35,613 nt of DNA from an uncultured Actinomycetes bacterium (GTDB lineage: Bacteria > Actinomycetota > Actinomycetes > Nanopelagicales > Nanopelagicaceae). Numbering within the stretch: position 1 is the stretch's first letter; each line of letters starts with the position of its first letter. The stretch covers positions 1 to 35,613 of the forward strand of contig CAJAEK010000125.1 of NCBI GenBank assembly GCA_903938735.1, given 5' to 3'. Under the pieces are notes generated by a model. That model had not been told where the DNA came from. It made no database searches and saw nothing but the letters and a program-made list of their open reading frames with translations. Below are positions 33,572 to 35,613 of this stretch, one piece after another. Position numbers and translations under genes: made by a program.

Positions 33572-33628
33572 ATCGCTCGGCCGAAGCCCCGATTAACGGT
33601 GCGTAACCAGCTCGGGATAAGATTCGCC

Positions 33629-33871
33629 GTGGTGGTTCCAATAAGAAGTTGCATCGCTTGTCGAAAGCGGAGCGATTGGAGCGAACTCCTTCGGGTAGTT
33701 CTCGTAGGGAATCGGGTTATCCCGGATCCGACGAAATCCAAGGATGGTCGTGGCGCCTGGTTGCATCGGAATTGTTTCGATATGGCCGTGGAGCGACGAT
33801 CGTTCGGCAGGGCGTTGAAGTCTGATTCCGAATTAGACCTCAATGAGCTGAAGCAGTTTTTAGTCAGTTAA
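33629..33871 (+). CDS. YlxR (DUF448) family RNA-binding protein
   Basis: VVPIRSCIACRKRSDWSELLRVV..GRGAWLHRNC; between nusA and infB. GTG 33629 (or 33632) preferred over the track start 33599 because a TAAGAT -10-like box lies at 33618-33623. Confidence 0.85.
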   Translation: MVVPIRSCIACRKRSDWSELLRVVLVGNRVIPDPTKSKDGRGAWLHRNCFDMAVERRSFGRALKSDSELDLNELKQFLVS

Positions 33872-33901
33872 ATATTACGAACTATTAACAGGAGCATATA
33901 A

Positions 33902-33931
33902 ATGTGCACTAAGGCAATCTCTCAATCATGA
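33902..33931 (+). CDS. Candidate upstream ORF MCTKAISQS in the infB leader
   Basis: AGGAG at 33890-33894, 7-nt spacing, ATG 33902; 9 codons then TGA, overlapping the next ATG (ATGA). Confidence 0.5.
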   Translation: MCTKAISQS

Positions 33932-33948
33932 GCACCGCGCGCTCATGA
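33927..33948 (+). promoter_or_regulatory. Perfect hairpin TCATGAGC-accgcg... -GCTCATGA in the infB leader
   Basis: TCATGAGC at 33926-33933 and GCTCATGA at 33941-33948, 7-nt loop. Confidence 0.6.
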
Positions 33949-34008
33949 GTAAGGCATTGATTTAGGCTTCAGCGAACTCCGCAGGGGCCTTAGAAACGGA
34001 AGGCAACT

Positions 34009-35613
34009 GTGGCAAAGGTCCGCGTTTACGAGTTAGCAAAAGATTTAGGTTTAGAAAGTAAGGAACTGCTCGCCAAGCTTCAAGAAGTAGGCGAATTCGT
34101 TCGATCAGCATCCTCAACTGTTGAGGCACCAGTGGTGCGTAAGTTGATGGAGAAATTCCCTGATCTAGCGAACGCCGCTAAGGCAGCAGATACCGCCGAT
34201 GCTCCCAAGCCCGCAAAGAAAGCTGCAGCGAAGAAGTCCGCTGCCAAGAAGAGCGACGGCCCAACTCCCGAAGAGATTGAAGCGGCGCTCGCGACGCTTG
34301 ATGCCGATACTCGTGCACAGTTAGCAAGCGCACAGGCTGCACAAGCCGCAGCTGCTGCAGCGCCGCCGGTTGCGCCAGTAACACCTGCTGCACCAGCCGC
34401 TCCGTCGGCGCCAGCAGCCGGTGATGATGCATCTGCCACACAAATGCCGCGCCCACCACGCCCAGGTAATAATCCATTCTCATCTGGAACAAATCCTGCA
34501 ACCGCGATGCCTCGTCCACCGCGCCCAGGTAACAATCCATTCTCGACCGGTGGTGCAGTTCCGCGCCCACCAGCACAACGTCCATTGCGTCCCGGCGAGC
34601 GTCCACCAATGGCGGGATCACGTCCTGGTGCTGTTCGTCCAGGTTTCGCAGCTCGTCCACAAGCACGTCCAGGTACTGGTGCACCGGGAGCAGGTGGCGC
34701 AGCTGGTGCGCGTCCAGGTGGTTCGTCGCCTTACCGTCCCGGCACATCTGCTGGTGGCGCTGGTGCACCATCAGGAAATAATTTTGGTCCAAATAAAACT
34801 GGCGGCCCAGGTCGTCATCAACGCGGCGGCGCCGCGGGTGCATTTGGAAAGCAAGGCAACAAGAATCGCAAGGGCCGCAAGAGCAAGAAGGCGTTGCGTG
34901 AAGAGTTCGACAATATGGCGGCGCCATCACTGGGTGGCGCAGTTATTCCACACGGTGATGGCAAGACCCAGATTCGCTTGCGCCGTGGTGCAACTCTTAT
35001 GGACTTCGCAGAGAAGATCGGTGGCGATCCAGCAGCGTTAGTTTCAGCACTCTTCCACTTGGGAGAAATGGTCACTGCAACTCAGTCGGTTGATGAAGAT
35101 ACCTTCACACTGCTCGGCGCAGAGCTCGGCTACCAAATCCAGGTCGTTAGCCCTGAAGATGAAGATCGCGAGCTTCTCCAAGAGTTCGATATCGACCTTG
35201 AGGATGAACTCGCAAATATTGATCCAGAGGATCTCGTGGTTCGCTCACCAATCGTCACCGTTATGGGTCACGTTGACCACGGTAAGACGCGCTTGTTGGA
35301 TGCGATTCGTTCGACCGAGGTCATCAAGACCGAAGCCGGTGGAATTACTCAGCACATTGGTGCATACCAAATTCACCACATGCACGATGGCGCAGAGCGC
35401 GCAATCACCTTTATCGATACACCAGGTCACGAAGCCTTTACCGCGATGCGTGCCCGTGGTGCCAAAGTCACCGATATCGCAGTGCTCGTTGTTGCTGCCG
35501 ATGATGGCGTGATGCCACAGACCATTGAAGCGCTGAACCACGCTCAAGCTGCTGATGTCCCGATCGTTGTAGCCGTTAACAAGGTCGATAAGGAAGGCGC
35601 TAACCCAGATAAG
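34009..35613 (+). CDS. infB: Translation initiation factor IF-2, N-terminal and G-domain part (3' truncated by window edge)
   Basis: GTG 34009 after [37 protein letters not shown]; Pro/Gly/Ala-rich linker; [61 protein letters not shown]. Not in the ORF track because no stop lies in the window. Confidence 0.96.
34444..34548 (+). repeat. 63-bp-period coding repeat in infB ([13 protein letters not shown] twice)
   Basis: [21 protein letters not shown] / [17 protein letters not shown], starting at 34444 and 34507. Confidence 0.9.

Follow-up and report, generated by a model that had tools for sequence, protein, structure and literature searches.

In front of infB, which encodes IF2, the window analysed here (the whole stretch of 35,613 nt, part of a draft genome of 1.28 Mb that is 85% complete) carries three very short open reading frames in direct succession. 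The question is whether these arose by chance, whether they are translated and whether ribosomes moving along them might set the amount of IF2. Gene order at the locus is rimP-nusA-ylxR-infB: NusA KH and RimP domains are found upstream of ylxR (Pfam), and ylxR itself, the upstream neighbour of infB, occupies positions 33599..33871 (Pfam YlxR, E=2.5e-18) on the forward strand, as do all features of the sense chain and infB given below. The gene that follows starts with GTG and continues past the window end (34009..35613); its IF2_N and GTP_EFTU domains (Pfam) confirm the first-pass annotation in calling it infB.

Within the gap between ylxR and infB (~140 nt in the window) a direct reading reproduces every coordinate given earlier for the chain. 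The first frame, uORF1 (MCTKAISQS, 33902..33931), is preceded by an SD, AGGAG, at 33890..33894, which reads AGGAGC in the leaders of the genus. It is joined to uORF2 (MSTARS, 33928..33948), and this in turn to uORF3 (MSKALI, 33945..33965), through an ATGA; neither uORF2 nor uORF3 has an SD of its own. From the uORF3 stop it is 43 nt to the infB GTG at 34009, in front of which the direct reading finds another SD, GGAAGG (33998..34003). Scanning the surroundings of the leader for promoters and terminators yielded no promoter-like site, and the leader is without a terminator. In some genus leaders (L006 and the like) an AGC-GAAA-GCT mini-hairpin with a GNRA loop is located between the uORF1 SD and its ATG.

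A chance origin of the chain is excluded by shuffles, control windows and a scan of a longer sequence. Under a strict rule (at least three NTGA-linked ORFs of at most 15 codons with ATG or GTG starts, in 180-nt leaders) the chain is present in 97/127 distinct infB leaders, against 0.8% of dinucleotide shuffles and 0.3% of control windows. Under a relaxed rule (junction offsets of -4, -1 and 0 to +3, last stop 25-75 nt before infB) a chain of three is seen in 123/127 distinct leaders against 0.9% of shuffles; both shuffle tests allow only partly for kinship among leaders. Lack of junction conservation in relatives had been named beforehand as an outcome that would refute the proposal, and the 123 leaders show the opposite. 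In 800 kb of one family member the strict ATG chain of three occurs at five distinct sites, and the infB site is the sole one that precedes a large ORF. Pairs of ATGAGYNC were also used as a search pattern, which is too loose alone to gauge specificity. The four leaders missed by the relaxed rule include one where the chain lies farther upstream (L031) and one where it is present and was dropped by the scoring rule (L175); the other two (L005 and L203) have two chained ORFs only.

Judged by sequence comparison, the chain architecture is class-wide at infB and occurs in essentially every sampled member of the Actinomycetes. Each of the 28 tabulated families includes one or more strict three-ORF chains. 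Named genomes show the arrangement with differing peptides: MSTR, MSTR and MSTPMK in Streptomyces, MSAR, MSTPR and MSTAS in Actinomadura, MSTP, VKFR and MTMRHS in Mycolicibacterium, MSTR, MKSLK and MTRLQVHE in Micromonospora, MSAQR, MKHQR and MKVQNV in Corynebacterium, and MSTR, MSTQR and MSTHQY in Ornithinimicrobium. A further Actinomycetes family (L243), fetched alongside the out-of-class set, carries the chain as well. Of 38 regions from other Actinomycetota classes, 33 could be scored, the start codon being uncertain in some, and none of these has a chain of three. Within the window's genus, all leaders long enough to read keep the three-ORF arrangement. The uORF1 peptides vary here from 7 to 12 residues (MSNPNWEIK, MSSFKRELTKP, MSKKVTK, MLNKASK and others) and the uORF1 stop is always at -4 or +2 nt from the uORF2 ATG; uORF2 typically reads MS(T/A)xRS and uORF3 M(S/I)KxxI. 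For seven genus MAGs (L007, L011, L016, L022, L024, L026 and L027) the contig ends inside the infB leader or within the opening codons of infB. Near-identity of this stretch among co-occurring species may be what breaks the assembly.

In the window both junctions lie within the arms of a hairpin that spans uORF2 (33926..33948). This hairpin, TCATGAGC (33926-33933) against GCTCATGA (33941-33948), is real, has 8 bp and a 7-nt loop, and is present in the predicted fold. The frames might then be untranslated and the ATGA pattern a by-product of a conserved structure, the more so as the palindromic TCATGA yields an antisense chain also, and as L005, a genus leader with a loop one base shorter, retains the hairpin while its uORF2 frame is altered. 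The hairpin, however, is a lineage feature, so that the earlier remark on the two junctions is right for the window and does not carry over to the class: it occurs in 32/51 leaders from the family to which the window belongs, against 0/76 of the others. As these 76 keep the chain, the hairpin alone is rejected as a general source of the ATGA pattern. Given in addition that the spacing preserves the frame across length changes (see below) and that uORF1 has an SD, we regard the untranslated reading as hardly credible. The antisense chain itself runs from 33957 downwards and consists of three ATGA-linked ORFs (MPYS, MSARCS and MIERLP). It arises because TCATGA is palindromic and is probably a by-product of the junction hairpin; a single genome is ambiguous in this respect, and only the comparison across genomes identifies the sense chain as the conserved one.

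The spacing of the junctions is informative about translation. Counted without assuming any ORFs, the distance between adjacent ATGAs is 2 mod 3, which puts the TGA in frame, in 196 cases against 17 (1 mod 3) and 13 (0 mod 3). The usual spacings are 11, 14 and 17 nt (20 nt also occurs) and the lengths of the uORFs therefore vary by whole codons. From this frame, kept despite changes in length, we infer that the uORFs are translated; the evidence is strong though indirect. Junctions are of the ATGA type in 182 cases and of the GTGA type in 10, with start and stop overlapping and a weak SD at uORF2 and uORF3, whereas the final uORF stop is mostly TAG or TAA rather than UGA. Class-wide, the median SD energies are -7.1 kcal/mol for uORF1, -2.7 for uORF2, -1.9 for uORF3 and -7.4 for infB. 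Lacking an SD, uORF2 and uORF3 are thus positioned for access by reinitiation. The claim that uORF1 has a better SD than infB holds at most for this genome, since the class-wide medians of the two are about equal. Two leaders of Micrococcaceae type (L031 and L246, the latter from an assembly without the infB start) have a fourth uORF of 23 residues (MTTLLRSAMG...ARSKK) that starts 2 nt after the third. It occupies an insertion and ends exactly at the foot of the hairpin described next, so that the last stop still adjoins this hairpin. Farther upstream, a conserved element, GGAAGCRGGTCGAGA, is located ~5-25 nt before uORF1 across the class (e.g. in L052, L058 and L147); it may act as an extended SD, or else pair over a distance with the arms of the hairpin. 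Long-range pairing between uORF segments and hairpin arms gave weak signals only, and the upstream element pairs with the arms at ~-1 kcal/mol.

Between uORF3 and infB lies a second hairpin, hairpin A (33965..33989), with a 5' arm GGCTTC (33965-33970) that adjoins the uORF3 stop and a 3' arm GGGGCC (33984-33989). Its arms read CGGUCC...GGACCG across most of the class and GGCUCC/GGGGCC in the window's genus. The 5' arm begins 0-4 nt past the uORF3 stop in 112/126 leaders and the 3' arm ends mostly 12-19 nt before the infB start. Because the loops vary between leaders, an arm-swap test was chosen: pairing is 5.4 kcal/mol stronger between the two arms of one leader than after an exchange of arms among leaders (t=-12), from which it follows that the arms covary. 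Hairpin A is weak in the genome of the window and strong in most relatives.

A second match of the 3' arm, with the initial 30 nt of infB, emerges from the same test (4.8 kcal/mol, t=-8.5). This is because infB codons 3-6 (AAG GUC CGG GUN) copy the 5' arm GGUCCG, and the 3' arm is therefore able to pair with either. In the window this shared 3' arm (33979..33991) is the predicted alternative partner of infB codons 2-6 (AAAGGTCCGCGT, 34014..34025), whose synonymous sites are constrained class-wide; the resulting hairpin B is predicted to enclose the infB SD and start codon. Codon usage was analysed in the 107 leaders where IF2 begins with (A/S/P)K(V/L)R. At codon 4 we find GTC in 96/107, GTT in 8, CTT in 3 and GTG or GTA in 0, against all four Val codons at codon 6 and a GTC share of ~14% of Val in infB of the window's family. 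CGC or CGG accounts for codon 5 in 105/107, and the third base of this Arg codon covaries with the arm base that faces it (55/64 paired against 40 expected, 0/20000 shuffles, relatedness ignored).

To simulate a ribosome at uORF3, 12 nt past its stop were masked and the opening energy of infB -14..+19 was calculated. Masking makes the infB start harder to open in 97/106 leaders, with a median of 5.2 kcal/mol in the window's own family and 5.4 kcal/mol in the rest, and with the ribosome at the uORF1 stop the start is as open as in the free leader. Outside the family, the masking effect is 8.4 kcal/mol with the own codons and 3.5 kcal/mol after synonymous randomisation (53/55 leaders with the greater value for their own, t=13), and opening in the free state is unaffected (10.5 against 10.3). 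The effect is smaller within the family (3.8 own against 1.7 randomised, own larger in 35/46). Counted by family, own exceeds random in 25/28. Pairing within the class amounts to -24.5 against -19.3 for random, and leaders from outside the class show no pairing of the hairpin B type (-15.6 against -17.0 for random). Leaders with an IF2 N-terminus other than (A/S)KVR give no synonymous signal for hairpin B; they include Mycobacterium, Corynebacterium, Microbacterium and similar, and N-termini such as VAGKAR and VAKPR. On this comparative evidence synonymous infB codons are selected for pairing with the shared 3' arm, most strongly in the (A/S)KVR lineages. Hairpins A and B are predicted to be mutually exclusive, with a common 3' arm and one of them sequestering the infB RBS, as expected of an attenuator. 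The second hairpin is thus likely, according to these folding calculations, the output device that the first-pass annotation overlooked. By the same calculations the window illustrates this system badly: its switch is weak (opening 15.6 when free against 17.6 with uORF3 occupied) and the infB RBS region is paired even in the free fold.

These results also bear on another explanation, namely that the translated micro-ORFs merely shield the transcript between ylxR and infB from Rho or RNases, without any sensing. Leader translation is known to counter Rho-dependent termination, and the gap measures ~140 nt in the window. Nevertheless, one small ORF would suffice for this purpose, and protection leaves the presence of exactly three chained ORFs, the abutment of hairpin A and the synonymous selection at codons 4-5 unexplained, which makes it very improbable.

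From the anatomy and conservation observed we infer a mechanism in which IF2 is sensed and a definite sign is set. We consider it probable, though with clear reservations, that the infB leader is a class-wide cis-regulatory translational attenuator, driven by reinitiation, that lowers IF2 when this is ample. A ribosome would load at the uORF1 SD and would have to terminate and reinitiate at each of the two SD-less ATGA junctions, every reinitiation requiring IF2 and fMet-tRNA, as others have shown in E. coli. Because reinitiation is serial, the fraction of ribosomes completing uORF3 should drop steeply with declining initiation capacity. A ribosome terminating at uORF3 would mask the 5' arm of hairpin A, and the freed 3' arm would pair with infB codons 3-6, enclose the SD and start, and reduce IF2 synthesis. 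If IF2 is scarce, the chain would remain incomplete, hairpin A would form, the infB start would be open and IF2 would be made. Initiation capacity would in this way be held under negative feedback, comparable in bacteria to the GCN4-type sensing of eIF2. The geometry at the end of the leader, where 0-4 nt separate the final stop from hairpin A, would fit a ribosome dwell that sets the state. In E. coli, overexpression of IF2 raises reinitiation and IF3 lowers it (PMC2268962; reviewed in PMC12548453). The original idea survives in part: its core, a chain that gauges initiation capacity and thereby sets IF2, is strongly supported by conservation, frame, the SD-less uORF2 and uORF3 and the published IF2 dependence of reinitiation (PMC2268962), while the role of the junction hairpin has to be revised and a likely output device added. 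That the three micro-ORFs are serial reinitiation tests which gauge IF2/initiator-tRNA capacity and hold the IF2 level through the codon 3-6 RNA switch throughout the class has, in our view, an even chance of being correct.

What is most in doubt is the sign, since ribosomes that have ended uORF3 might move on and reinitiate at infB ~40 nt downstream, which would reverse it. Under such positive coupling the chain would deliver ribosomes, those finishing uORF3 would melt the hairpin and feed the infB SD to raise IF2, and hairpin B would block uncoupled starts. Downstream translation is usually raised by ATGA coupling (PMC6728339, PMC12548453) and the uORF3 stop is 33-60 nt from infB, a span that 70S or 30S scanning might cover. 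Yet infB has a strong SD of its own, a GC-rich hairpin lies in the path of the ribosome, and positive feedback on IF2 would presumably be unstable. Furthermore, the synonymous codons are selected for stronger sequestration precisely under masking of the 5' arm, and accessibility in the free state is unchanged. We therefore judge positive coupling unlikely, though it deserves to be taken seriously.

It might also be argued that the same hairpin switch responds not to IF2 itself but to the way ribosomes terminate or are recycled (through RF2 at the UGA stops of the two junctions, RRF or ribosome antibiotics). All junction stops are UGA by construction of the ATGA and are read by RF2, coupling is affected by RRF (PMC9955659), and the region upstream of M. 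abscessus infB has a peak of WhiB7, a regulator induced by ribosome-targeting drugs (PMC10727445). On the other hand, it is IF2 that is regulated in all leaders, reinitiation is directly promoted by IF2 (PMC2268962), and TAG and TAA predominate over UGA at the last stop. This possibility appears quite improbable.

By analogy, a negative-feedback leader of this kind would resemble a ribosome-mediated translational attenuator with a GCN4-type reinitiation sensor. GCN4 and ATF4 of yeast and animals likewise have several short uORFs, and the factor that delivers initiator tRNA (eIF2) sets the reinitiation competence that decides the output. Those systems depend on eukaryotic scanning, have no ATGA overlaps and target a transcription factor instead of an initiation factor, whereas output at infB would run through alternative RNA hairpins; the analogy is functional only. 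Attenuation in trp and ermC/cat is alike in that the position of a ribosome on a leader ORF picks between hairpins that exclude each other, the RBS being sequestered in one of them, but there elongation is sensed on one ORF (charged tRNA, drug stalling); at infB initiation and termination would be sensed on three chained ORFs, and the model predicts that an occupied leader turns infB off. The junction chemistry is identical to that of ATGA gene overlaps (trp, motAB and others), and IF2 dependence has been shown in a coupled phage gene pair. Such overlaps couple two protein genes, whereas the infB leader chains peptides of ~2-16 residues, apparently merely for the sake of translation and termination. 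Autoregulation of infC (IF3) and prfB (RF2) similarly lets a translation factor control its own synthesis via the step it catalyses, through an AUU start codon and an in-frame UGA frameshift, respectively, and neither has a uORF chain or hairpin switch. Finally, the whiB7/wblC attenuators are actinobacterial uORF leaders with alternative hairpins too, unlike infB in having a single uORF, transcription attenuation and antibiotic stalling.

No earlier description of an infB uORF leader was found among 5.39 million open papers, and at the gathering score no Rfam family is matched by the window or by nine leaders; within these collections the leader belongs to no described leader family. Little is understood of how IF2 levels are set in bacteria, and the infB leader would be the first bacterial one known to us that uses chained reinitiation as a sensor. 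The single locus noticed at first is one example of a class-wide system. As the chain is kept in Streptomyces, Mycobacterium, Corynebacterium and Bifidobacterium, control of IF2 can be tested with reporters in laboratory strains. More generally, ORFs of 4 to 7 codons that annotation ignores can be under strong selection. The leader may also bear on the response of actinobacteria to ribosome-targeting drugs. Regarding M. abscessus, the WhiB7 ChIP peak upstream of infB (PMC10727445) suggests that infB has its own promoter there, responsive to ribosome-targeting antibiotics.
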